Assembly (NCBI GenBank): GCA_022226955.1
Contig: CP092079.1
Location: forward strand, 3,283,546 to 3,347,545
Length of the DNA stretch: 64,000 bases
DNA from: Nitrospira sp.
GTDB taxonomy: Bacteria; Nitrospirota; Nitrospiria; Nitrospirales; Nitrospiraceae
Direction: 5' to 3'
Shown here: positions 51,346 to 64,000 of the stretch, piece by piece
Layout of the letters: the number at the start of each line of letters is the position of its first letter
Position numbering within the stretch: position 1 is the stretch's first letter
Notes under the pieces: generated by a model
Told to the model about the DNA's origin: nothing
The model's input: the letters and a program-made list of their open reading frames with translations, nothing else
The model's database searches: none
Program-made: the position numbers and the translations under genes

Positions 51346-51358
51346 ACGATCTGGTTTA

Positions 51359-51416
51359 TGACAAAATTTAAGGAAACTATTCTAAATTAAGGAAACTTCT
51401 TAAAATTAGGGAAACT
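51359..51416 (+). repeat. Tn7-like end: three repeats on a 19-base period
   Basis: The cores TTAAGGAAACT (51368-51378), TTAAGGAAACT (51387-51397) and TTAGGGAAACT (51406-51416) are spaced by exactly 19 bases, each preceded by an A/T-rich AAAT-type run. TGACA at 51359-51363 could be the terminal bases. Closely packed repeats at the tnsA-proximal end match TnsB binding sites in Tn7-type elements. The RR stop codon ends at 51345. Confidence 0.75.
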
Positions 51417-51534
51417 TTTACTATCCTGCGGACTCTACCTGTCTTTTCCGCCACTAGATCTTCTCGATAATCTCTGTAAAAGGTCTTGTACAGCCACGGC
51501 TTCCGCCGCACAGAAGTATATTTGCTGCCTTGCT

Positions 51535-52005
51535 ATGCCAGAAATTCGTCGCACGTTTGGTAAATATCTCCGAGAACTTCGACAAAGCCGAAGCCTCGGT
51601 CTCCGAGAAGTGTCCCGCCAGGTGATCCGACAACCAGGCGCCCGTGGCCTTTCACCTGCCTACCTGAGTCTCATAGAGCGCGGACATGTTGAAATTCCCC
51701 AACAGCATATTCTTCGTCACCTCAGCGTGGTTCTTGGAGTTGACGACAATCTGTTCGCCGCGATCGCCCAGGGGCTACGAATCGTAACTCTGTCAGATCT
51801 TCTAGAACAGTCATCGCTACATCATGCAATCCTAGTCGAGTTGCGATCTGGGACTGCCCGATACCCCGCAATCATTTCAGCTATTATCGAAATACTTCAG
51901 GCGTCTCCAGGGGGATTCCAGGGATTGCGCGCCATTCATTTTCAGGAAGGCAAGGTCGATGGGTTCTTATCCTTCGATCCGAAGTTGAGGCGCCGCCGCC
52001 GTTAA
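51535..52005 (+). CDS. Xre/Cro-family regulator at the transposon end
   Basis: A 156-residue protein. The N-terminal helix-turn-helix (about 5-75; FGKYLRELRQSRSLGLREVS, then LSPAYLSLIERGHVEIPQQH) is of the XRE type. The remaining 80 residues are mostly helical, with a basic tail (KLRRRRR). It lies between the end repeats and tnsA, as regulators do in several Tn7-like elements. A perfect 9-base inverted repeat overlapping the tnsA promoter follows 50 bases after its stop, and it is the obvious candidate binder. The ATG at 51535 has no strong ribosome site. Confidence 0.8.
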   Translation: MPEIRRTFGKYLRELRQSRSLGLREVSRQVIRQPGARGLSPAYLSLIERGHVEIPQQHILRHLSVVLGVDDNLFAAIAQGLRIVTLSDLLEQSSLHHAILVELRSGTARYPAIISAIIEILQASPGGFQGLRAIHFQEGKVDGFLSFDPKLRRRRR

Positions 52006-52036
52006 CAGCAAAACTCACGAACTGAGCTGGGACCTC

Positions 52037-52083
52037 TTGACTTCTGAGTGTTTAATTCTATAAACAGTTAGTACTTTATAGAA
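52037..52083 (+). promoter_or_regulatory. Promoter of tnsA operon overlapped by a 9-base palindromic operator
   Basis: TTGACT (52037-52042) and TATAAA (52059-52064) are separated by 16 bases and precede the tnsA ATG (52095). The -10 hexamer lies inside the left half of a perfect inverted repeat TTCTATAAA (52056-52064) / TTTATAGAA (52075-52083) with a 10-base spacer. Binding there would block RNA polymerase. The upstream Xre protein is the likely ligand. Confidence 0.65.
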
Positions 52084-52094
52084 AGATTCCGCGG

Positions 52095-52958
52095 ATGAGA
52101 TTAAAAGTCCACATAACGCAGGAACTCATCGACAAATTCCTTCGCCAGGGCCGAGGGCAAGGAGAGCTTGGGCGCTATTTTCCATGGTGGACCGTTTTTG
52201 ATATCGCTTCCAAAGGATTGCGGACACGGGTCCGAGGCATCAAGACAGGGCGGACGCATCATTTCCTGAGCCTCCTTGAACTAACGTTTTTCTTCCTGGC
52301 CGAGTTTAGCGATTCAGTGCTCGATATCCGCGAGCAGTATCCGCTCCTGCCCCAAACCGAGACCCTCGCCATAGCAAGTCAGTTAGGCATTAAACACTCT
52401 GTCGACCGCCTCACACACTTTCCCATAGTCATGACCACCGATTTCCTCCTCACCGTGCGACACGGCGCTGCAGATGTTCTCCAAGCCTGGTCTGTAAAAT
52501 ACCTCAAAGACCTTCGCAATCGACGCACACTTGATAAAGAAGAAGTGCAACGACGGTGGTGGGAGTCCAAACATATTCCCTGGAAGCTCTTTACTGAGAA
52601 GGATGTGACGCCAGCCCAGGCGCATAACGTTCGGTTTCTCTTCCCATATAAGAAGTCGCGTGCCCTCAAAGGAATACCGAGAGACATCATTCGCCATGTC
52701 TCGGATTATCTCCAAGATAATGTTCGTCCGAATGTGCTTCTGAGGGACCTGTGTGCCGACTATGAACAACGCTACACGGTTGAGAAAGGAACCGGGCTTC
52801 TTGTCGCCCGGCATTTGTTGGCTAATGGACAATGGCCTATCGACATTTCGCAAAAACTCTCTCCTCATGAACCGTTGCGATTCCGCCCTCAACCTCTAAT
52901 GTCCGGGAGACTGCTTCCCCATGGAGCTTCTCAACAATTCATTACTAGCTTGGCGTGA
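52095..52958 (+). CDS. tnsA: TnsA-like transposase endonuclease subunit
   Basis: A 287-residue TnsA homologue that cuts the 5' transposon strands, which together with TnsB gives cut-and-paste movement. The restriction-enzyme-like fold has its catalytic triad visible: Glu62 (LLELTFFFL), Asp116 (VMTTDFLLT) and Lys135 (AWSVKYLKDL). Their spacing matches Tn7 TnsA (Glu63, Asp114, Lys132). The C-terminal helical domain (about 165-280) that binds TnsC is present. The ATG at 52095 is 12 bases after the operator. The stop falls 38 bases inside tnsB. All catalytic residues are intact, so it should be active. Confidence 0.92.
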   Translation: MRLKVHITQELIDKFLRQGRGQGELGRYFPWWTVFDIASKGLRTRVRGIKTGRTHHFLSLLELTFFFLAEFSDSVLDIREQYPLLPQTETLAIASQLGIKHSVDRLTHFPIVMTTDFLLTVRHGAADVLQAWSVKYLKDLRNRRTLDKEEVQRRWWESKHIPWKLFTEKDVTPAQAHNVRFLFPYKKSRALKGIPRDIIRHVSDYLQDNVRPNVLLRDLCADYEQRYTVEKGTGLLVARHLLANGQWPIDISQKLSPHEPLRFRPQPLMSGRLLPHGASQQFITSLA

Positions 52959-55071
52959 TCCGTCCAACATCGAGGAGGTGCAGTCGATCGAGCGGATCCT
53001 CTACTTCGCCTCTAACGGTGAAGAGGCTTGGATGATCAATCTGAGCAAGAAGAAAGGATTGCCCCATTCTCGTCCCATGGCTCAAGTCCGCACGGCCATC
53101 CAGACCGGTGAGGCGACGATCGTCACCGAGGACCCTTACGCATACCTTCGGACAAGTGATGCAGAGCTTTCACACGAGAAGTGCCAGGTGCGGGACCATT
53201 TGCATGCCATCCTTGGTCCGTATTTGGAGACCTATAGGGAGGCCCTGCTGCAGAAGTCCCGCCGCGGGGCGATTATTTTGAAGATCACGCAGGAAACGAA
53301 CTGGAAGAAAAAGAAGATTTACAAGTATCTGCGACGCTATTGGCAATCCGGTCAACTCCGCAATGCCTTTTTACCTGACTGGCACCTGCGGGGTGGGAAA
53401 AACGTCACGAAAACGTGCACGCAGGGTAAGAAGCGAGGACGGCCCAAGCAGGTCGTCCAAACGAATCGAACAACCGTGGTCGGAATCAACGTCGATAAGG
53501 ACATGTATCAACGTCTCAAACGAGGGGTCGATGACTGGTATCTCAAGACCGATCTCTCCTTCGCGGCTGCCTTTCACAAGATTACGACCACCCAATTCAT
53601 TGACGGACTCGAGTTTGTGAATGGTGTTTGGGTCCCACGGCCGTGGTCATCCGACAGACTGCCGACACAACGCCAAGCCTGGTACGTCTATGAAAAGGAG
53701 TTTCTTCATAAACCGGAGGCGCGTAAGCGCAAAATTGGTTCCCATCGCTGGAATCTCGAAGAACGTGAACTTACCGGGGATACCGCGACCTTGGCACCCT
53801 GGCCCGGTAGTTTGTACCAAATTGATGCCACGGTTGGGGATATTTACTTGCGGAGCCAATTAGATCTGAATCGGATCATTGGACGACCTGTCATTTACTT
53901 AGTGGTCGATGTCTTTAGCCGCATGATTGTCGGATTCGCCGTATTGATGGAAGGACCCAGCTGGATGGGCGCACTGCAGGCTCTGGAAAGCGCCTTCATG
54001 GACAAAGTGGCCTTCTGTAAATCCTTGGGGGTCGATATCCAGCCGGGCGCTTGGCCTTCTGCTGGTCTTCCCGAGGCGATCACCGCGGATAATGGGGAAT
54101 TCTTGGGCTACAACGCTACCAGCCTGAACAGCCTTGATATCCTGCTGCATAACACGCCACCCTACCGCCCAGATTGGAAATTTCTCGTGGAGTGCTATTT
54201 CCGGACTGTGCAGGAGAAACTCCGCTGGGTCCCGGGTTATCTCCATCCAACGCGAGAACGGGGAGACAAAGACACCCGCCTCGATGGTGTACTGACACTC
54301 AAAGATCTGCGCCAACTGCTGATTTGGTGCATTATCCAGTACAACAACCACCGCTTGTTGGAGAACTATCCCGTCACCAAATGCATGATCCGCGACGATC
54401 TCGATCTCTATCCATCGGAGATCTGGCGTTGGGGCCTAAGCGCCAATAGTTCTCGGCTTCGCTGGGAAGACCCCAAGCAAATTCACGCTATTCTGCTCCC
54501 TCGCAGCAAAGCGAGAGTCACGCGCCACGGCCTGAAGTTCAAGAATCTGTACTACTCCTGTGAAACCGCTCGGAACGCCCACTGGTTTTCCCAGGCGTCG
54601 GCAAAAGAATGGGATGTGGAAGTCTCCTATGATCCACGGAGCCCCGAGGTGCTCTATCTTGTGAAAGAGGACGACAGGATGGAGGCGTGCACACTGTTGG
54701 ACCGGATGCATGAAGACACATTTCGCAGCCATGACTGGTATGAGGTCGAAGACTACCTCGCGATGCGGGCAATGAAACAATCCGAGGCTAAACTCACGGA
54801 AGTGCATCGAGCCGTCGTCCCGCGGACCATGCAGGAAGCGATAGTCCGCGCAGCCCAGGAGAATCTGAAAGAAGTGCAGGTACCACAGAGCAAACGGGCA
54901 GCCCTACAGGGCGTCAAAGACAACAAGCGGACGGAGCGCGAGTATGAGCGCGCTCTGGCCACTGGCCAAGACCCCGTCGCACCTACTGTGGAGGAGGACG
55001 CAGAAGAATACATTGGCATCGATGAACCGGCCGAGTTGCTGCGCACGGCCGCCGTAGTGAGGACAGCATGA
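52921..55071 (+). CDS. tnsB: TnsB-like DDE transposase
   Basis: A 716-residue Mu/Tn7-type transposase. The N-terminal third holds helix-turn-helix DNA-binding domains for the end repeats (QETNWKKKKIYKYLRRYWQS region). The rve core has Asp302 (YQIDATVGD), Asp390 (ITADNGEF) and Glu424 (WKFLVECYFR), i.e. a DD(34)E arrangement. A beta-barrel (about 505-560) and a charged C-terminal tail (about 590-716), used for TnsC contact, follow. The ATG overlaps tnsA by 38 bases with GGGAGA upstream. The catalytic triad is intact. A gap of 116 bases follows before tnsC, without a clear terminator. Confidence 0.94.
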   Translation: MELLNNSLLAWRDPSNIEEVQSIERILYFASNGEEAWMINLSKKKGLPHSRPMAQVRTAIQTGEATIVTEDPYAYLRTSDAELSHEKCQVRDHLHAILGPYLETYREALLQKSRRGAIILKITQETNWKKKKIYKYLRRYWQSGQLRNAFLPDWHLRGGKNVTKTCTQGKKRGRPKQVVQTNRTTVVGINVDKDMYQRLKRGVDDWYLKTDLSFAAAFHKITTTQFIDGLEFVNGVWVPRPWSSDRLPTQRQAWYVYEKEFLHKPEARKRKIGSHRWNLEERELTGDTATLAPWPGSLYQIDATVGDIYLRSQLDLNRIIGRPVIYLVVDVFSRMIVGFAVLMEGPSWMGALQALESAFMDKVAFCKSLGVDIQPGAWPSAGLPEAITADNGEFLGYNATSLNSLDILLHNTPPYRPDWKFLVECYFRTVQEKLRWVPGYLHPTRERGDKDTRLDGVLTLKDLRQLLIWCIIQYNNHRLLENYPVTKCMIRDDLDLYPSEIWRWGLSANSSRLRWEDPKQIHAILLPRSKARVTRHGLKFKNLYYSCETARNAHWFSQASAKEWDVEVSYDPRSPEVLYLVKEDDRMEACTLLDRMHEDTFRSHDWYEVEDYLAMRAMKQSEAKLTEVHRAVVPRTMQEAIVRAAQENLKEVQVPQSKRAALQGVKDNKRTEREYERALATGQDPVAPTVEEDAEEYIGIDEPAELLRTAAVVRTA

Positions 55072-55187: not shown

Positions 55188-56813
55188 ATGGCCAATCCCG
55201 TCAAACGGAGCAAGAGAGCGAAACCAAACCTGAGCGCGCTCATCCGTCAAGGCGCCCAGATTGCCGCCACCTATGACACCAACCAAGAGGTGCCGCTCTA
55301 CCGGGGCATCCCGACACTGGAAGCCCTAGGGCCTATCCTGTCAAAGGAAGAGGTCATCTCCCGGCTTGCCTCGACACCCGTCTATGATGAACAAGAGCGG
55401 TTGCTCAAACCGGAAACCCTTCTCCACGTAGTTCAAGCTGCATTGCTAAACTGGTTCAGGCCCTTGGCGATGCACATCGATCTCCAACAGCGCCTGGATC
55501 GAGTCATTCGCGGCAGCTTGCCGTATCGCAATCCATTGACAGTAGGCTATCACCGCAAGTGTTTCGAGCACATCGATCAGTTTCACGACTATATAAAGCG
55601 GCCTGCGTCGGCTCCATACCAGCGCACGACGGCCCTGGGCTTCCACTTTACTGCCCCCAGTGGCGCAGGCAAAACTACCTCGATCGAACGAATCCTCATG
55701 GAGCTCTATCCTCAGCGTATCCTCCATACTGAGTACAAGGGCAAACCGTTCCATTTTGATCAACTGGTCTGGCTCCATCTCGATTGTCCTGGCAATGGTT
55801 CGTTGCGATCATTGCTCATTCAATTCTTGCAAGCCGTGGATGCTATCATCGGGAAAACAAAGCTCACGAGCGGCGAAGAAGTAGGTTATTACGAGCTGTA
55901 CGGAGGAGATCGGGCGACGGTGGACTCACTGATTTCGGCTGTAGCGACCGTAGCCGCGAATCACTGTCTCTCTGTGCTCATCATCGATGAAATCCAACAC
56001 CTTCTTCATGCCGATGGCGACGGGGCTGACAAAGTCCTGAACTATCTGGTGACACTAGTGAACACTATCGGCCTCCCGGTCATTTTAGTCGGGACACCGC
56101 GTGCGAAACATGTCCTCTCCCAACAGGCGAAACAAATTCGCCGAGGGACAGGCCAAGGGGAACTCGAATGGCACCGTTTGGACCGTGCAAGTCTCAGCTA
56201 TTCGCTGATGACGGAAGAGATGTGGACCTATCAATATACATTGAAGCCAGTGACGCTGACCGACCGTATCAAGGATGTCCTCTTTGAGGAAACACAGGGT
56301 ATCCCAGACTATATGATCAAAGCCTATATGATGGCCCAATGGCGATCCATTACGACGGGCAAGCCGCTTTCTGTCGCTATGCTGCGATCGGTCGCCAAGG
56401 ACGGCTTTGCTTCGGCCAGACCCATTCTGCGCGCCCTCCGGCACAATAATTTTGCCGGCCTCAAGAATCTTGATGATGTACGTCCCCCCAACGTAGATCC
56501 CATTCTGCAAGCCGCTGAACAACAAATGAACGAAGAGCTCTCCACTGCGGCTGGTCTTAAAGCCATGCAGGCCAGTAAAGATACAGACAAGGAGACCTGC
56601 GCCACGACTGGCACTGAAACAACACCGCAACAGCACACAGCCCCTCCCACAGCGGCAACCGAAGCAACAGCTTATAGGGATCTGGCTTCGGATCCGCCGA
56701 CATTGAGGGAACTGCACCAGCAAGCGGAAGCGTCAGGGACAGATTTCTATGATCTCCTCAGAAAGAACAATGTCGTGAACCGCCCGATGGAGTCAGGGCC
56801 ATCTCCCCTGTAA
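55188..56813 (+). CDS. tnsC: TnsC-like AAA+ regulator ATPase
   Basis: A 541-residue AAA+ ATPase that links target selectors to the TnsAB transposase. The Walker A is APSGAGKTTS (Lys162), and the Walker B is VLIIDEIQHLL (Asp267-Glu268). Sensor I is near VILVGTPRAK. It is at the long end of the family: an N-terminal extension of about 125 residues and a low-complexity Thr/Ala/Gln-rich segment (about 455-510) precede a short helical tail. The ATG has AGGAGG six bases upstream, the best ribosome site in the element. It is followed after 13 bases by tniQ. All ATPase motifs are intact. Confidence 0.94.
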   Translation: MANPVKRSKRAKPNLSALIRQGAQIAATYDTNQEVPLYRGIPTLEALGPILSKEEVISRLASTPVYDEQERLLKPETLLHVVQAALLNWFRPLAMHIDLQQRLDRVIRGSLPYRNPLTVGYHRKCFEHIDQFHDYIKRPASAPYQRTTALGFHFTAPSGAGKTTSIERILMELYPQRILHTEYKGKPFHFDQLVWLHLDCPGNGSLRSLLIQFLQAVDAIIGKTKLTSGEEVGYYELYGGDRATVDSLISAVATVAANHCLSVLIIDEIQHLLHADGDGADKVLNYLVTLVNTIGLPVILVGTPRAKHVLSQQAKQIRRGTGQGELEWHRLDRASLSYSLMTEEMWTYQYTLKPVTLTDRIKDVLFEETQGIPDYMIKAYMMAQWRSITTGKPLSVAMLRSVAKDGFASARPILRALRHNNFAGLKNLDDVRPPNVDPILQAAEQQMNEELSTAAGLKAMQASKDTDKETCATTGTETTPQQHTAPPTAATEATAYRDLASDPPTLRELHQQAEASGTDFYDLLRKNNVVNRPMESGPSPL

Positions 56814-56826
56814 GCCTGGAGTGACC

Positions 56827-57618
56827 ATGCTTTCGATGTTTCCGGACATCTATCCCGATGAATTACTCGTCAGCGTATATGCCCGATTCCATGTACGCCT
56901 ACGAGCCTTCCCCCAAAAGACCGCTCAGTTGCTATTTGGCAGTACCACGCTTTGCATCAAAGGAGATCTCCCTCATCGCTTATCTCATCTTGCCACTATG
57001 CTGCCTCCAGGGTATCGACCAAGCATTCGCGAAATGATCGTGCACCACACACTTCTTCCAATCTATGAACGCTTCAGCCTGTGTCCTCGGTGTGAAGATC
57101 ATATGATGGGAATGACAGGGTATTCCTTTGAACGATCCAGTATACGCCTCATCCGCACCGTGCCGACTCTCCGATACTGCCCAATGTGCTGCAAGGAGGA
57201 CCACGACCAGGCAGGAGAATACTATTGGCATCGAAACCATCAGATTCCCGGTATACCAGTTTGTTTGATCCATCAGGTTTTCCTAGAATGCAGCGATATA
57301 CCTCTACTGAAGATCCCCGCAACGGATTTAATGTCGATCGCAGCAGAACTTTCGCTCCAGCCCGTTGCACCGAGACAGGTCAATATCAACAATGGGCATC
57401 ATAGGACAATCGTAAATATTGCATGCGAGCTGGTGGAGTTTCTTTCAGCGGCAGGTTCTTCACATGCTCGAACTAGCAAATCTATCATTAGGCTGTTAAA
57501 TCAATCCGAGTACCTCACCGAACGTTATAGTCCCAAGCCACCTAACCCCGTTGCAAAACGGCCCAAGACATTTGCTAGACAGGAGGGGACACGTCACTCT
57601 GCTTCATTGCGACAATGA
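56827..57618 (+). CDS. tniQ: Short TniQ-family target-selection protein
   Basis: A 263-residue TniQ-domain protein. The N-terminal signature is IYPDELLVSVYARFHVRLRA. Two zinc-binding groups are visible: FSLCPRCEDH and RYCPMCCKEDH followed by YYWHRNHQIPGIPVCLIHQ. The conserved W-H-R-x-H-Q-x-P-G-x-x-V-C-x-x-H run is a hallmark of TniQ/TnsD. It lacks the long C-terminal DNA-recognition region seen in the next gene, which resembles TniQ proteins that partner with another targeting module. The ATG at 56827 has GGAG five bases upstream. Its stop overlaps the tnsD start (ATGA). Confidence 0.9.
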   Translation: MLSMFPDIYPDELLVSVYARFHVRLRAFPQKTAQLLFGSTTLCIKGDLPHRLSHLATMLPPGYRPSIREMIVHHTLLPIYERFSLCPRCEDHMMGMTGYSFERSSIRLIRTVPTLRYCPMCCKEDHDQAGEYYWHRNHQIPGIPVCLIHQVFLECSDIPLLKIPATDLMSIAAELSLQPVAPRQVNINNGHHRTIVNIACELVEFLSAAGSSHARTSKSIIRLLNQSEYLTERYSPKPPNPVAKRPKTFARQEGTRHSASLRQ

Positions 57619-59429
57619 ATGAAACAATGCGCACCACGACTTACCGCAGCTGCATTGTGCTCCTAACCATGGCCATTTATCTCCCAGCTCCATATCCAGA
57701 TGAAGTGCTCTATAGCATCCTTGCACGCCATCGGCTTCGCTTAGGCCAAACAACGACTACTGTTTTAATGCGCCAACTATTTGGGTCACCATCAGTGCAT
57801 GCTGCCGTCGCTTTTCCCACTCACCTCAGCCATCTGTCGTCGACCCTTCATCCCCACGCGAATATGACGTTGGACACGCTGATCATGCGGTTCACTCTGT
57901 TTCCATATTACGCGCCCTTTTTCGCAAGGGACCATCGCCTAGCTCTCTATCAGCGAATGGCTGCTGATCACCATGGCATGGAAAGAGCCGTGCCGATGAC
58001 CTGGCTCCGCAGGAACAGCGTAACGGTTTCTGAGATGCTTCGGTATTGCCCAGTTTGTGCAGCTCACGAACGGCGAGAACTCGGCGAAGCGTATTGGCAT
58101 CGTTTACACCAGATACCTGGCGTGGAAGTCTGTGCCGTGCATGAAGTGTGGCTTGAATCGACTTGCGCCCCCGCTAGAGCACTTGGGGGCTGGCACCACT
58201 TTCTATCTGCAGAATCGGCGATCTTAAGTACCGCCGTTAGACATCTGAGTGCTTATGAACCAGGTCGGAATTCAATGATACAACTTACTCATGATGCAGC
58301 CTGGCTGCTCGAACAGAATCCCAGTTCTTCCGATCCGGAGGCACTATGGAGCCGATACCGATGCCTACTCAGGGAACGAGGTCTTAGCAGCTATCGTGGG
58401 AAGGTCTCGCCTAGCAAATTACTCGCTCTCATCCACCGCCTTTTCCCTGTCACATTCCTCGCACGCATTGAAGGCAATTCCGGACGACTAACATCCGGAC
58501 GAGGGATTTTCAGTCTCATCCGCAAGCCACGAGGAGGACTTCCTCCGCTATATCACCTTCTCATGATGCAGGTTTTGGATAAAAGTGCTGAAGAGTTTTT
58601 TCAACTGCCTGCGAAACCTCATGACTTTGGCATCGGGCCCTGGCCCTGTTTGAACAGATTAGCACCTCACTACAAAGCAATGACGGTGATGACGTATTCA
58701 GTTCATGTGCAGAAGGATGGAGGACGCCCAGTCGCAACCTTCTCCTGCCCCTGTGGATTTGTCTATTCTCGCATTGGACCAGATTGGGGACCGCTTGCCC
58801 GATTCAGTTATACGCGTATTGAACGGTATGGTCCGTTGTGGGATCGGAAATTCTCACGTCTTTGGTCGACGCCCGAGAATACGCTCTCGTTCATCTCCCA
58901 GACGGTAGGGATGGCAGAAAAGAATCTCTCAAAACATGCAGCACGCCTGAAGTTACCGGTTTGGAAGAGACCGACTGGACATTCGGCTATACCTAGTCGC
59001 AAACGATCTTGGCGCGGACGGATGGTGCGGCCATTATCCGCCACCATTCGTAGAGTGAGACAGGAGTGGCGTAATTTGTCAGCACAAAGCGGCCGATCAA
59101 TTCATGAGGAGCGAGAAGAGCGCCGACTCTACCACTGGCTGTTTCGACATGATCATGACTGGCTCATCGCTCAACCTCATCGATCGAGAATCACTCGTCA
59201 GGCTGGATCACACACGCAGGTCGACTGGAATGAAAGAGATCAGTTTCTTGCCCATGTTCTTGAAAGACAACCCTTACTTCCAGCTCTGTCAGGACATCAC
59301 CGCATCTCAATAAACAGGCTCATCAGACAATCTGGATACCGACACCTCATTCAACCTAATTTACACCGCCTTCCCGCGACTCGTGCCACACTCAATAGAA
59401 TCGTCACCTCTCATATGCCAGAAGACTAG
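57615..59429 (+). CDS. tnsD: TnsD-like long TniQ-family site selector
   Basis: A 604-residue TniQ/TnsD protein. The N terminus (YLPAPYPDEVLYSILARHRL) and zinc group (RYCPVCAAHERRELGEAYWH, then RLHQIPGVEVCAVHEVW) match the short TniQ just upstream. A second Cys pair (FSCPCGFVYSR) lies near residue 380. The last 200 residues are Arg/Lys/Trp-rich and probably read a fixed attachment sequence, as Tn7 TnsD reads the 3' end of glmS. The start could be 57615 (overlapping tniQ) or 57669 (closer to the conserved start). The insertion site suggests the response-regulator 3' end as target. That is inference from position only. Confidence 0.88.
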   Translation: MNETMRTTTYRSCIVLLTMAIYLPAPYPDEVLYSILARHRLRLGQTTTTVLMRQLFGSPSVHAAVAFPTHLSHLSSTLHPHANMTLDTLIMRFTLFPYYAPFFARDHRLALYQRMAADHHGMERAVPMTWLRRNSVTVSEMLRYCPVCAAHERRELGEAYWHRLHQIPGVEVCAVHEVWLESTCAPARALGGWHHFLSAESAILSTAVRHLSAYEPGRNSMIQLTHDAAWLLEQNPSSSDPEALWSRYRCLLRERGLSSYRGKVSPSKLLALIHRLFPVTFLARIEGNSGRLTSGRGIFSLIRKPRGGLPPLYHLLMMQVLDKSAEEFFQLPAKPHDFGIGPWPCLNRLAPHYKAMTVMTYSVHVQKDGGRPVATFSCPCGFVYSRIGPDWGPLARFSYTRIERYGPLWDRKFSRLWSTPENTLSFISQTVGMAEKNLSKHAARLKLPVWKRPTGHSAIPSRKRSWRGRMVRPLSATIRRVRQEWRNLSAQSGRSIHEEREERRLYHWLFRHDHDWLIAQPHRSRITRQAGSHTQVDWNERDQFLAHVLERQPLLPALSGHHRISINRLIRQSGYRHLIQPNLHRLPATRATLNRIVTSHMPED

Positions 59430-59447
59430 AAACGAACGGAGGATCGC

Positions 59448-59987
59448 ATGACGATGGGTATGATGCAGGGGTATCGCCAAGCAGTGCAAAAGTTTAGTGG
59501 CATTAAGAAACTCACTGACGAGGCCATGCAAGATTGGCTCGATATTGCTTTGCCAAAACTGCCGCCACGCACACAACAGATGTTCGTCGATGAGGTCTTC
59601 TTCCTGACAACAGGATTGCCGCCCTCGTATGCGGAGAGTGAGTGCCCTCAACCGCCAAAAAGTGGTAGAGCATCGCGTGCCAAAACCAAAACTATGATGA
59701 TCGACGCGCAAGCGACACAGGAGGCCTTTGATCTACAGCAGCGGGTAAGTGACGTATTGGGTGGCGAAGTCGCAGCAACGGCATGGCTGACCCGTAAACA
59801 TCGGGCGCTCAAGAACAAAACTCCGCTTTCCATTCTTGGAACCTCGGCCGGAAACGCTCGCGTGGAGCAGCTCTTGAAGAGGACTAAACGATCTCCACTT
59901 CCCGTAGACGCGCCACTTCAGAAAAAGAAAACCGTTGCCAGTCGAAAGGCTCGCTCCGTGAGCACGATCCGGAAAGCGGAAGATTGA
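59448..59987 (+). CDS. DUF2384 (MbcA/ParS/Xre toxin-binding domain) protein
   Basis: A 179-residue protein. Residues about 90-145 (LQQRVSDVLGGEVAATAWLT, then RKHRALKNKTPLSILGTSAG, then NARVEQLL) match the DUF2384 domain of antitoxins paired with RES-type toxins. The N-terminal 65 residues (QGYRQAVQKFSGIKKLTDEA) are uncharacterised, and the C-terminal 30 are Lys/Arg-rich. A strong ribosome site (GGAGG) lies five bases upstream of the ATG. No RES or other toxin gene is next to it. It follows tnsD by 18 bases and may belong to the transposition operon, or be orphan cargo. Confidence 0.75.
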   Translation: MTMGMMQGYRQAVQKFSGIKKLTDEAMQDWLDIALPKLPPRTQQMFVDEVFFLTTGLPPSYAESECPQPPKSGRASRAKTKTMMIDAQATQEAFDLQQRVSDVLGGEVAATAWLTRKHRALKNKTPLSILGTSAGNARVEQLLKRTKRSPLPVDAPLQKKKTVASRKARSVSTIRKAED

Positions 59988-60106
59988 GGCTGGGTAGTTG
60001 ATCAGCTTATGGAGCACCGTCCTTCGGACGATCCTGTGGATGTCTCTAGATTCCATTCGGTCTGGCGAGAGAGGTCTCATCCCACAAGGATGAAGACTTC
60101 ATTGAG

Positions 60107-60286
60107 ATGAGCAGACAACAAGACAGCCCTCGTAACCTTACTCCGGCCATTATTCATGTCCGCCTCTCCGCTGAGCCCCTTTCACCCCAAAAGCAGGAAC
60201 AGGTACGCCAAGAGGTCCAGGAGATCTTGAAGCGGCGTCAACACTATCTAGACCTGGCTCGCAGGCAACACCACTCTAATGATTAA
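60107..60286 (+). CDS. Small protein, unknown function (copy A)
   Basis: A 59-residue frame MSRQQDSPRNLTPAIIHVRL continuing SAEPLSPQKQEQVRQEVQEI and ending in a basic, His-rich helix. The middle resembles a short helix-rich dimerisation unit. A second copy, related across more than 40 residues, lies at 60560-60766. The preservation of TPAII, LS, EPLS/DPLS and KQE between copies argues for past selection. The ribosome site is weak (TTGAG). It was too short to stand out on size alone. Function unknown. Confidence 0.5.
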   Translation: MSRQQDSPRNLTPAIIHVRLSAEPLSPQKQEQVRQEVQEILKRRQHYLDLARRQHHSND

Positions 60287-60299
60287 ATAGGGCTTGTCG

Positions 60300-60530
60300 T
60301 TAAGCTGGCCCGTGGGGTTTCTTTGTTTCCACGAACGCAATAGTTTCTAGGCAGGGCACTGAGCTTGCGTGGATCTCAGCTGAAACAAACTCGGCGCTGA
60401 TCGGATCAATCTCAGTGGCGTCTAGGTGTTCCAATGCTGTGAGGATTTCCTGGAGGGAATGACCGGCACGCGGTTCAAGTATCACATGGAGCCGTGAGGG
60501 CACCTCGGGTTGTTGAGAGGATTTGTACAT
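60300..60530 (-). CDS. Small hypothetical protein
   Basis: A 76-residue minus-strand frame between the two small related plus-strand frames. The product (RLHVILEPRAGHSLQEILTA, then LEHLDATEIDPISAEFVSAE) has a regular beta-alpha-beta pattern and ends EIHASSVPCLETIAFVETKK, which looks like a folded domain rather than random sequence. I do not recognise the family. No ribosome site precedes the ATG at 60530, so the start is uncertain. Confidence 0.4.
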   Translation of the reverse strand: MYKSSQQPEVPSRLHVILEPRAGHSLQEILTALEHLDATEIDPISAEFVSAEIHASSVPCLETIAFVETKKPHGPA

Positions 60531-60559
60531 ACTGGGATCATACCAAAACGAGGGTGTCG

Positions 60560-60766
60560 ATGAGCAGATAACTCGAGAACCCGCACAGCATCACCCCGGC
60601 GATTATCCCTGTTATGCTCTCTTCTGACCCGCTCTCATCAGAAAAGCAGGAGCGCGTGTGTCAGGACATCCAGGAACTCAAGCAGGGGTGGCAACACCAC
60701 CAGGACGAGATCCGACAGCAGGCTACGTTAACTAATGAGTCGGATGACGTCAACCGGATCACGTAA
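60560..60766 (+). pseudogene. Small protein copy B with in-frame stop at codon 4
   Basis: The frame from ATG at 60560 reads MSR, then TAA, then continues openly as LENPHSITPAIIPVMLSSDP and LSSEKQERVCQDIQELKQGW to a TAA at 60764. It matches copy A (60107) in position of MSR, TPAII, LS-DPLS and KQE-RV. Copy A has CAA where copy B has TAA. Either it is inactive or translation starts at the internal ATG at 60614. Its end overlaps the nuclease remnant on the other strand. Confidence 0.5.
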
Positions 60767-61012
60767 GGCGTGGGGGGGTCGTTTAGCCTTCCGCCATTCC
60801 CATGACGGAATGGGCTGAGCCTCAGCCCAGAGCCCCATTCGCTTCTCCCCTGCGTCTGTTTCGAGCTCCTCTAACACCGCATTTCTCGGTGCATATTTGC
60901 AATACCACCAACACATTCCTACTTTCACGAGTTGCTGTTTGAGATTGTCTCCATCCGGTAGGACGACATCTGCGAGGGTCAGATCATAGCGATCCTTTCC
61001 GAATGTCCGCAT
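60728..61012 (-). pseudogene. Thermonuclease (SNase-family) 3' remnant
   Basis: The 94 readable residues match the C-terminal half of staphylococcal-nuclease-type proteins: RTFGKDRYDLTLADVVLPDG and LVKVGMCWWYCKYAPRNAVL, then the MGLWAEAQPIPSWEWRK tail. Full-length relatives are about 150 residues, with a signal peptide and DGDT active-site start. Upstream in the same frame I can follow only STLTLGKDVT and then sequence that no longer resembles the family. The Arg/Glu catalytic region is therefore lost. It was most likely truncated by recombination near 61050. Confidence 0.65.
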
Positions 61013-61178
61013 TGTGACATCTTTCCCAAGAGTGAGGGTAGATATGCCCTTTGTGGCACCCTTTCCTACAGTGCGTTGGTGCCCACATTCTGGCCGCCGC
61101 TCGTGCTTTGGAGGCGAGAGCAGCGGCCCATTTCGTTATGGCCATTGAGGAGGTGGGTTTAGCGCTAGCTTTCAGGCG

Positions 61179-62246
61179 TTACTTTGGGAAAGACGCCGGC
61201 GGCAGAACATGTTGCCACCCTTCTCCATTTAGAGCAGTTAAAAATGCTTCAAGATCCTCTCGTTCTTCGTCCGAAAGAAATAGTGAACCGATCGTATTGT
61301 CTTGAAACGGATTCTTTACTCCCCCATGGTTATAGAAGTTGATGACCTCCCTCAAGGTGTTAAAGCGACCGTCGTGCATATATGGGGCCGTACGGGAGAT
61401 CTCTCGCAAGGTAGGTGTTTTAAATGCTCCAATATCCTCAGGCTGATGGGTTATGGCATATCGTCCTAAATCCACGTGACTCGATTCCCAACCAATTCCC
61501 AAATTATGAAATTGTTCATCTGTATAATTTGGTCCCGCGTGACATCGTATACAACGGCCCTTTCCTTGAAAAACACGAAATCCCCGTTGGGCTGACTGCG
61601 TCAAAGCGTTGAGGTCGACACCGTAATCGAAACGGTCTACAGGGCTATTGCCGGACAATATCGTTCGTTGAAAATTTGCGAGAGCGATCCCAATATTTTC
61701 TATAGTGATGTTTTCGCTAAATACTTCCATGAATAACTTGCGGTAGCCCCGAATGGACCTGAGCGTCTTCACTACGTCATCGTAAACGAGAAACCCATGC
61801 TCTACGGAGTTTACTAACGGACCGAGGGATTGTTCTTCCAGCGTGGCTGCGCGCCCATCCCAAAACAGCTGCTTGCCAAAGACACGATTGATGATCGTCG
61901 GAGCATTACGGTCGCCAGTCAAACCTCTGACCCCTCTTGAGACCGGGCGAGAGTCCGTAAACGCCACTGTAGCGATGTGGCAACTTGCGCAAGCAATTGA
62001 TTGATCGATGGAGAGCCGCTTGTCGAAAAACAACAGTCGTCCGAGCTGGATCTGCCCTTCGGTCAATACGTTTCCAGCAAGAAGACGGTCATTGGGATTC
62101 TCGAGGCCTAAGAGGGAGTTCAGAACTACGGGAGTCCGTTTGGAAGGAGGTTTCTCCTGGGTGCCGGCTGTCGCATATGATGCCCCCCCGAATTGAATGA
62201 CCGCCCACGTGCTGATCGTCAGTATCGAGCCCAAGACGACTCTCAT
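61179..62246 (-). CDS. Di-haem cytochrome c peroxidase (MauG/CcpA family)
   Basis: A 355-residue periplasmic di-haem enzyme. A signal segment (residues 1-27) is followed by haem-binding CASCH (86-90) and CIRCH (232-236). The region FWDGRAATLEEQSLGPLVN and the GLTGDRNAPTIIN segment are typical of bacterial peroxidases that reduce hydrogen peroxide with electrons from small c-type cytochromes. FKTPTLREISRTAPYMHDGR with its Met/His ligand region is near 290. The ATG at 62246 has AAGGAG eight bases upstream. A preceding in-frame segment to 62303 is not supported. It shares strand with the P460-type gene but is separated by about 600 bases and a terminator. Confidence 0.92.
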   Translation of the reverse strand: MRVVLGSILTISTWAVIQFGGASYATAGTQEKPPSKRTPVVLNSLLGLENPNDRLLAGNVLTEGQIQLGRLLFFDKRLSIDQSIACASCHIATVAFTDSRPVSRGVRGLTGDRNAPTIINRVFGKQLFWDGRAATLEEQSLGPLVNSVEHGFLVYDDVVKTLRSIRGYRKLFMEVFSENITIENIGIALANFQRTILSGNSPVDRFDYGVDLNALTQSAQRGFRVFQGKGRCIRCHAGPNYTDEQFHNLGIGWESSHVDLGRYAITHQPEDIGAFKTPTLREISRTAPYMHDGRFNTLREVINFYNHGGVKNPFQDNTIGSLFLSDEEREDLEAFLTALNGEGWQHVLPPASFPK

Positions 62247-62823
62247 GTCTATGCTCCTTCCGGTACTTCTCCGCGTTGATGGAAGACAGACGTTTTTACC
62301 CAAACCCCATTTACAACTCGCTGGGCAATCGTTTCGTACGCAGATTTGTACTGTATCAAGCAGTGATGTGTCGTCACCAAGATACGATTCAACCGAAGGC
62401 TGAACGCCACGTATCGTGTTGGGTCTTATGGTGCTGTAATGTCTCTCGGGTGATTAACTATATGATGCGCGGGAATCCGATCGACGTACAATCCCGGGAT
62501 ATACGCTCTCTTAGGTGCTGGCAACAATGATTTTCCGTTGTACGTATGTGGGCTTGTGGGTTGGGTGCAGACCAGAATTCCTTCTATTGTGAAGCGAGCC
62601 TGCCGTTCAAGAGTCCAAATCGCCACGGAAAGGGCATTGACCAATTAGGGCATTCATAGAGTGTTTCTGAACCTGGTTTATTGGAAAGGTCTAACGATGA
62701 TCCACGTTAGGACCCTCAAACGATTCTTGTCTTTCTAGAAATTTCTGCCATCAAACCGTACGCGTGCAGGCATCTTGGCGTGTCATTCATCGAAGAACTT
62801 CATGAGAGCGCCGTTAAATAAAT
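62247..62823. other. Intergenic stretch without a supported gene
   Basis: About 577 bases between the peroxidase start and the terminator of the P460-type gene. It should contain the peroxidase promoter on the minus strand, but I could not choose hexamers. A minus-strand frame at 62426-62644 (72 codons) resembles nothing and lacks a ribosome site. No repeat of the transposon end type is seen. Confidence 0.45.
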
Positions 62824-62856
62824 CCGCGCCTGAACTCCGTAGAAGTTCAGGCGCGG
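62824..62856 (-). terminator. Rho-independent terminator of the P460-type gene
   Basis: Perfect 13-base arms CCGCGCCTGAACT and AGTTCAGGCGCGG enclose a seven-base loop. On the minus strand the stem is followed by ATTTATTTAA. It lies 16 bases after the gene's stop. Confidence 0.85.
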
Positions 62857-62872
62857 GGCTCCGAACAACGCT

Positions 62873-63487
62873 CTACTTTCCTGCCGCTGCGATGGCTGCT
62901 CGAATCACAGGGTAGTGCTTCGAAAATACAAAGTCGGTGGCATTGGCCTCATGACATCGGTTGCACTCGTCGACCTTATTCGGTAAGGATACTTCCTTGA
63001 GCGGATAGGAATGTCCAAAGCTGAAATACCCCCAGTGTCCTGGGTCCTTTGGAAAGCGCTTGGTATCCAGGACCGATACCTCAAGGCCAATAAATTCTCC
63101 TTGAAAATATCCAGCCCCGCTGCTGGCTTCTTTCTGCCCCACGCTGACCAATTCTTTCACCAACACAGTCCCGTCACGGTACTTCCCGGTCTTTTCCAAA
63201 TAGGCAAAGCTTTCGGGGTCCATATACACATTGTGAAACTCCGGGAAGTTGGCTTTCCCATCATTCATATCATTCGGCGTAACCGGCGTGCCGACATAAA
63301 CCCACTTCCGGTAGGCCGCTGGCGAGAGCCTCTTCATCTTACCTTCTGGCGTATACTCGACCGTTTTCGAGCCTCCATTCCCCTCTCCAGCTTGAGCGAC
63401 TACACCGACACTCCCCGAATACCAAAGCAATCCTCCGAGTAACGCAGCAATCACTAACGTGCTCTTCCGTTTTGACATGCTGTACAT
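62873..63487 (-). CDS. Cytochrome P460-family c-type haem protein
   Basis: A 204-residue exported haem protein. The signal peptide (LVIAALLGGLLWYSGSVGVV, cleavage near AQA-G) is followed by a P460-type domain: YRKWVYVGTPVTPND, FHNVYMDPESFAYLEKTGKY and DGTVLVKELV. The haem motif CNRCH (175-179) sits near the C terminus before DFVFSKHYPVIRA. Lys111 in DGTVLVKEL is in the region where P460 proteins carry the cross-linking lysine, but I did not align it. P460 cytochromes oxidise hydroxylamine or detoxify nitric oxide. A role in reactive-nitrogen handling fits a nitrite oxidiser. The ATG at 63487 has AAGGGGGG upstream; 63478 is an alternative. Confidence 0.82.
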   Translation of the reverse strand: MYSMSKRKSTLVIAALLGGLLWYSGSVGVVAQAGEGNGGSKTVEYTPEGKMKRLSPAAYRKWVYVGTPVTPNDMNDGKANFPEFHNVYMDPESFAYLEKTGKYRDGTVLVKELVSVGQKEASSGAGYFQGEFIGLEVSVLDTKRFPKDPGHWGYFSFGHSYPLKEVSLPNKVDECNRCHEANATDFVFSKHYPVIRAAIAAAGK

Positions 63488-63569
63488 GCGGCCCCCCTTA
63501 AATGTTTGTAGGTAGAAGACAAGTAAACCAGCTGCAAACTGTTTGTAACAAATTACGGGGTAGCCATCA

Positions 63570-63583
63570 GTCATGTGTATGAC
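63570..63583. promoter_or_regulatory. Palindrome upstream of the P460-type gene
   Basis: Perfect inverted repeat GTCAT-GTGT-ATGAC, with the four-base spacer usual for Crp/Fnr-family operators. It lies about 80 bases upstream of the P460-type ATG and between it and a divergent Crp/Fnr-type regulator gene. Confidence 0.45.
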
Positions 63584-63728
63584 AAATGATTAATTACTTT
63601 TTATGTAGAGTAACCTGCACGGTCAGGGACGCGGCATTTCAAGATATGAATGGACGCGCCTGCTCAGAGAGATTGTGAGTTGAAGCGGAAGCTAACGAGT
63701 AGCTATTTCTGGCGGCATAGAATATCTC

Positions 63729-63745
63729 AATAGTTACAAACTATT
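63729..63745. promoter_or_regulatory. Palindrome upstream of the Crp/Fnr regulator gene
   Basis: Perfect 7-base arms AATAGTT and AACTATT around ACA. It is about 60 bases before the regulator's ATG at 63807, a position suited to self-regulation. The rest of the 63488-63806 gap is AT-rich and holds no supported gene. Confidence 0.4.
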
Positions 63746-63806
63746 ACCGTAAAGCGTATCATTCGCTCGACTAGCTGACCAATCGACTAACTCAGGGTGT
63801 GCTCAT

Positions 63807-64000
63807 ATGGATCTTCCTCAAGCCCTTGCTAAGCGTACACTTTCAATCTGGAAGCAATTGTGCCCTTTTCGGCGGCACACCCTCAAGCACGGAGCGGAGA
63901 TACACCTGTCGTCGACCAACATGAAATTCTATATCGTCGATAAGGGCTTTGTGCGACTCACGTCCATTCAATTAGATGGGAAACGGGTAACAAGAATGAT
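63807..64000 (+). CDS. Crp/Fnr-family transcription regulator (3' end outside window)
   Basis: The first 64 residues of a cyclic-nucleotide-binding-fold regulator. LCPFRRHTLKHGAEIHLSST and FYIVDKGFVRLTSIQLDGKR match the first strands of the beta-barrel (G-x-x-I/L...Y-x-V-x-x-G-x-V-x-L). The DNA-binding half lies beyond the window. It is divergent from the P460-type gene, and two palindromes lie between them. Crp/Fnr proteins beside nitrogen-oxide haem genes often respond to nitric oxide or oxygen. That is inference from context. The ATG at 63807 has AGGG about ten bases upstream. Confidence 0.75.
   Translation, partial: MDLPQALAKRTLSIWKQLCPFRRHTLKHGAEIHLSSTNMKFYIVDKGFVRLTSIQLDGKRVTRM

Follow-up and report, generated by a model that had tools for sequence, protein, structure and literature searches.

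In Tn7, TnsB bound at the transposon end lies beside tnsA. Repressors encoded by the element itself are known in CASTs: in those of type I-F3 they are the Xre proteins RtaC, RtbC and VpxR, and the VpxR box overlaps the -10 of the promoters that VpxR represses, repression of the atypical array in the native host being described on overexpression only (PMC12150760). I-F3 CASTs are presented as having only CRISPR-guided machinery (PMC11406308). In type V-K CASTs, CvkR is described as a MerR-type dimeric repressor of tnsB and cas12k acting at a short dyad (PMC9938897). Closer to the organism considered here, a Tn7-like transposon of Nitrospira moscoviensis is described as carrying cytochrome P460 genes and IS21 copies as cargo, and apparently represents the same element type as ours; Xre has no occurrence in the main text of that paper (PMC8649781).

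The element studied here lies in a window of 64,000 nucleotides (the whole stretch of DNA that was analysed), part of the single-contig 3.6-Mb genome of a nitrite-oxidising Nitrospira. Among its nearest relatives with such an element are Nitrospira sp. UBA6493 and N. moscoviensis NSP M-1; the element of the genome labelled G237 is 98% identical to that of the window. The Tn7-like core spans 51352 to at least 59987 and holds TnsA, TnsB, TnsC and TniQ/TnsD genes in this order, all with Pfam matches above cut-off, which identifies the element as Tn7-like. All core genes stand on the plus strand and, from tnsA onward, are separated by short gaps or overlap slightly; the features referred to below are the following.

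51352..51420: tnsA-side transposon end, terminus TGG..., with three TnsB-type repeats of about 19 bp (51364-51381, 51383-51400 and 51402-51419)
51473..51494: weak candidate second Xre site, TCTGTAAA-N6-TGTACAGC, upstream of xre, 13/16 to the two-site consensus
51535..52005, plus strand: xre, XRE/Cro-CI-type HTH regulator of 156 aa (PF13560 above cut-off, PDB profile matches, HTH fold)
52037..52042, plus strand: -35-like TTGACT, common to the window, G237 and N. moscoviensis
52047..52068: candidate operator dyad AGTGTTTA-N6-TAAACAGT, arms 7/8, over the spacer and the -10
52056..52083: perfect palindrome TTCTATAAA-N10-TTTATAGAA, with a changed arm in G237 and absent in N. moscoviensis
52059..52064, plus strand: -10-like TATAAA, after a 16-bp spacer
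52095..52958, plus strand: tnsA (PF08722, PF08721)
52921..55071, plus strand: tnsB, overlapping tnsA by 38 bp
55188..56813, plus strand: tnsC (AAA_22, TniB)
56821..57618, plus strand: short tniQ (PF06527)
57615..59429, plus strand: tnsD, with TniQ and TnsD domains (PF15978, 7e-65)
59448..59987, plus strand: accessory gene with an Xre/MbcA/ParS C-terminal domain (PF09722), last in the same-strand run

The likeness to Tn7 lies in the TnsABC+D machinery, the TnsB repeats (in the window, those of the tnsA-side end) and insertion 3' of a gene, whereas the window differs in having xre interposed and the tnsA promoter away from the TnsB sites. With the regulators of I-F3 CASTs the window has in common an element-encoded XRE protein, a box over the -10 (a candidate here) and a repressor role (proposed here), although the likeness of RtaC and RtbC to the window's Xre rests on the shared HTH; a burst on entry into a new cell is likewise proposed for I-F3 CASTs (PMC12150760). 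The targets demonstrated there are the promoter of the atypical guide RNA and the surroundings of the regulator gene, whereas in the window xre precedes tnsA in a TnsD-type element in which no CRISPR repeats were found, and TnsD is present, unlike in I-F3 CASTs, which are described as being without a TnsD-type selector (PMC11406308). CvkR resembles the proposed Xre in being an element-encoded repressor of transposase genes at a short dyad, but it is a MerR and not an XRE protein and its element is of CRISPR type V-K.

A CRISPR-associated element was considered and rejected, as no 16-mer recurred at a distance of 45-90 bp between 51346 and about 104,000 (the window and 40 kb downstream) and no 20-mer recurred in the 42.26-kb N. 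moscoviensis element. The Pfam matches of the core genes and of three downstream ORFs are to families other than Cas6/7/8. A search for the other end of the window's element did not locate it. Judged by its genes, the window element is a CRISPR-free, TnsD-type variant of the Xre-repressor theme of I-F3 CASTs, with a predicted function. Among titles and the beginnings of abstracts, in a literature that mostly excludes subscription papers, we recognised no account of tnsA being regulated by Xre in a Tn7-like element without CRISPR.

The association between xre and tnsA was followed in relatives. A TnsB search of 175 genomes of the family gave matches in 9, at 12 places, which count as 11 elements because the two places in G115 belong to one element. 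The region upstream of tnsA could be read in 7 of these 11 (the window, G237, three in N. moscoviensis (G232), G143 and G115), a subset that leaves out G212 and G226, both cut by contig ends, as well as G210 and G253; the weak TnsB matches L025 and L026 stood outside the xre comparison. An XRE gene is found beside tnsA in six of the seven readable Nitrospiraceae elements. In four (window, G237 and two identical N. moscoviensis copies) it is a same-strand homologous xre directly upstream of tnsA, with a dyad in the promoter in all of them, and in two (L023 and L024) an XRE gene of another type on the opposite strand. In G143, none of the ORFs in the 2.6 kb upstream of tnsA was recognised as an XRE gene. 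Conservation of the proteins between the window and N. moscoviensis is low, with 49% identity for tnsA and 31-35% for xre (31% over the alignment, 35% by tblastn). More distantly, three cyanobacterial relatives (TnsB 39%) are without an XRE gene before tnsA, and glmS adjoins tnsA in at least two of them. No further relative came from viral contigs, whether searched with Xre or the TnsB alignment, no new close relative from 395 Nitrospirota genomes searched with the TnsB alignment, and no match from plasmids searched by tblastn with both Xre proteins; a scan of genome contigs with two short peptide patterns returned 6 loci, so that the comparison is shallow.

Two other observations were made in these elements. 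A perfect 16-bp palindrome, TAGCAGAATTCTGCTA, is present just upstream of the divergent XRE gene in the xre-tnsA intergenic region of L023 (N. moscoviensis). A gene with an Xre/MbcA/ParS domain closely follows tnsD (59448-59987 in the window, and in L018, L019, L020, L023 and L024), its homologues being 58-97% identical over the matched parts although these Nitrospiraceae Tn7-like elements have otherwise diverged; it appears to be an accessory gene that is conserved, and in both N. moscoviensis copies it is split by an IS21-type insertion.

The initial annotation had placed an Xre-type gene just upstream of tnsA, and ORF 51535-52005 indeed matches the XRE-type HTH family HTH_31 (PF13560) with 32.2 bits for a cut-off of 27. 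A profile search against the PDB retrieved an immunity repressor (8bny, 3e-5), and also ClgR, C.BclI and SinR. In the AlphaFold model only the HTH is well predicted (pLDDT blocks of 77-93, residues 1-70), and with this model no Foldseek match reached 0.001, the best being ClgR (4e-3, probability 1.00). The C-terminal half models poorly (pLDDT about 40-66), so dimerisation draws no support from the model, and this half matched no known family. XRE repressors of the phage and C-protein type (8bny, C.BclI, C.AhdI, P22 c2, SinR) resemble Xre in HTH sequence and/or fold, but not in the C-terminal half. The helix SxxYLSxIExG, common to the window and N. moscoviensis proteins, is taken to be the recognition helix.

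The same annotation saw in this gene and in a palindrome of the tnsA promoter a simple repressor switch for transposition. Its reading of the promoter proved sound: TTGACT (52037-52042), a 16-nt spacer and TATAAA (52059-52064) were found again at these coordinates, and form the best match (10/12) within 51346-52095 when no rule is set on the last base of the -10. A stricter scan reported no promoter, because it required a T at position 6 of the -10. The -10 does lie inside the left arm of an inverted repeat that is perfect, with arms of 9 bases (TTCTATAAA at 52056-52064, N10 at 52065-52074, TTTATAGAA at 52075-52083), and that ends 11 bases, rather than the 12 first given, before the tnsA ATG at 52095. 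This 28-bp palindrome occurs once in the 64 kb and in none of 100 shuffles, for a pattern taken from the sequence itself. When any perfect inverted repeat with arms of at least 9 and a gap of 0-20 is considered, one appears in 16 of 2000 shuffled versions of the 89-bp intergenic region, and the 64-kb window holds 12. The palindrome is a modest statistical signal, notable for its location and not for rarity alone.

Conservation of the palindrome across related elements had been proposed as its test, and here the proposal fared badly. Three of the 89 intergenic bases differ between G237 and the window, two of them within the palindrome, namely C52058A, which leaves 8/9 pairing between the arms, and A52070G in the spacer; the palindrome sequence is absent from the N. 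moscoviensis xre-tnsA element. Altered in a 98%-identical element and missing in the more distant one, it is thus largely not conserved where tnsA and xre are, as would be expected if it were not the operator. Its half-sites are offset by 19 bp, which would be long for one XRE dimer. Repression of tnsA by Xre through this palindrome is accordingly improbable in our view, in spite of its perfect arms, its suitable place and the pairing left in G237. That the palindrome acts as an RNA hairpin, in a leader or attenuator, is far less credible still and was rejected: a stem could form in a read-through transcript, but folding was no better than in shuffles (z -0.32, 70/200), and the transcript of the promoter itself would begin inside the palindrome.

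The preferred candidate operator is an overlapping dyad at 52047-52068, directly after TTGACT. In the window, AGTGTTTA-N6-TAAACAGT begins 4 bp after TTGACT and ends 26 bp before the tnsA start; its counterpart in N. moscoviensis, AGTGTATA-N7-TGTACACT, lies 2 bp after TTGACT and 33 bp before the presumed tnsA start, a GTG assigned from the protein match. All 16 arm bases are kept in G237 in spite of the three intergenic differences; this natural variant offers a probe to discriminate between the two candidate operators. A joint score that combined symmetry with likeness between the two sites was attained by 3 of 3000 shuffled intergenic pairs, and by 18 of 3000 when the N. moscoviensis intergenic region alone was shuffled; arm length (8) and gap limits were chosen after seeing the sequences, so that the 3/3000 is descriptive. 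On rescanning 64 kb and 39 kb with the two-site consensus at gaps of 6-7, a score of 16 was found only at both dyads, the next best being 13. The degenerate two-site motif scores at least 14 at one place in the 64-kb window and at least 13 at six, among them the site at 51473..51494, which is identical in G237 and without counterpart in N. moscoviensis. Upstream of xre no second operator stands out clearly; the site at 51473 is weak and is not claimed as one.

The dyad is backed by only two independent sequences, those of the window and of N. moscoviensis, and the correspondence between them is imperfect: spacing is off by 1 bp (N6 vs N7) and the right half-sites agree at 5 of 8 positions. The best N. 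moscoviensis promoter match is TTGACT-N19-TACACT (9/12), so the -10 does not appear clearly conserved there. The N. moscoviensis region can alternatively be read as tandem 10-bp palindromes, AGTGTATACT-TTT-AGTGTACACT. The N. moscoviensis dyad also bears a resemblance (GTGTACAC) to the TGTACACT part of the cyanobacterial end repeats, which was set aside since it lacks the AAATAAAG half and the end repeats of Nitrospira are different.

From a mechanistic point of view, we propose that Xre, in the manner of CI or C proteins, binds this dyad as a dimer and represses the whole tnsA-tnsD run, a reading that we favour with somewhat less than even confidence. The element-encoded protein would sit between and over the -35 and -10 at its best candidate site and so block RNA polymerase, and the tnsA-tnsB-tnsC-tniQ-tnsD run, if transcribed as the operon that its closely packed same-strand genes suggest, would be held down once the element is established. 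Entry into a cell without Xre would then let the tnsA promoter fire (zygotic induction). Of the switch first proposed, the upstream xre and a dyad in the promoter, where no TnsB site was detected, are retained, and the palindrome named as operator is not; a symmetric site in the tnsA promoter is probably the off-switch, and this site is probably not the exact 28-bp palindrome.

That Xre acts as a repressor rather than an activator we infer from the position of the dyad, which lies past the -35 and covers the -10, as is usual for a repressor. Imperfect hexamers, the 16-bp spacer and the poor -10 of N. moscoviensis would suit an activator or dual regulator that brings polymerase to a weak promoter, and VpxR is described as activating its own gene (PMC12150760), yet we regard this role as quite unlikely. 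It is also unlikely, though worth weighing, that Xre acts solely on its own gene or on genes of the host, tnsA being transcribed by read-through from xre and the dyads being coincidences. No terminator was found between xre and tnsA, and the AT-rich intergenic sequence gives chance dyads a fair likelihood, an 8/8 dyad arising in 32 of 2000 window shuffles and a 7/8 dyad in 176 of 2000 N. moscoviensis shuffles; but the two dyads are alike in both sequence and position, and Xre has stayed adjacent although TnsA is only 49% identical.

Control of tnsA by TnsB was also considered. No TnsB-type site was detected in the xre-tnsA intergenic region, where the best score was 4.2, matched by 457 of 1000 shuffles, as against 18-24 at the end sites, and such a site in the tnsA promoter was rejected. 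The window's TnsB-type repeats are more than 600 bp from this promoter. All three xre-less cyanobacterial relatives have, by contrast, a AAATAAAGTTGTACACTA-like repeat array within about 250 bp of tnsA. This layout would suit the classical Tn7 arrangement, in which end-bound TnsB represses tnsA, but as the window's intergenic region has no TnsB-like site, direct TnsB control of its tnsA appears unlikely, and we give the classical arrangement very little credence here. TnsB could instead act on the xre promoter, which is probably near the TnsB repeats. In contrast to the cyanobacterial layout, a dedicated regulator appears here to have taken over control from TnsB. More broadly, and as a tentative view that we hold less likely than the operator proposal, this CRISPR-free, TnsD-targeted Nitrospiraceae lineage may have swapped TnsB control for recurrently recruited XRE repressors forming a lysogeny-like operon switch, possibly with TnsB tuning xre; repeated recruitment is suggested by the homologous same-strand xre of four elements and the divergent, other XRE genes of two.

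Such elements do move, as indicated by the two N. moscoviensis copies (L018 and L019), identical over 42,261 bp, that is, a 42,259-bp element and one shared flanking base on each side, with TGT...ACA ends and 5-bp duplications (ACTCC and AGAAC). The pair is best read as a recent transposition, one copy lying at a response-regulator site and the other elsewhere. These two insertions fix the N. moscoviensis end homologous to the tnsA-side end of the window, whose terminus is TGG. In the window, G237 and one N. moscoviensis copy, insertion is 6 bp past the stop of a NarL/LuxR-type response-regulator gene (51346-51352 in the window), which suggests that the 3' end of this gene is the TnsD attachment site. 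As regards recombination, DNA is 89-98% identical to N. moscoviensis over long stretches comprising the end of tnsD, the gene with the ParS domain and a large share of the cargo (59113-64000 onward). Identity is only 42-50% for the tnsA-tnsC proteins and, at the DNA level, about 78-80% for flanking genes; recombination at a common site appears to have exchanged two element cores. Between the window and G237, 22 of 826 tnsA positions differ (52095-52920), as compared with 4 of 2151 in tnsB, hinting at recombination within tnsA. Among the cargo, on the minus strand at 62873-63574 and 61179-62303, are cytochrome P460 and a homologue of di-haem cytochrome c peroxidase.

Transposase silencing in Tn7-like elements without CRISPR has been little studied. 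If Xre does shut the tnsA promoter, prophage-style control of transposition would not be peculiar to CASTs and would have emerged more than once. The element also carries cytochrome P460 genes from one nitrifier to another and, with two identical 42-kb copies in N. moscoviensis, such a switch would bear on real gene transfer.
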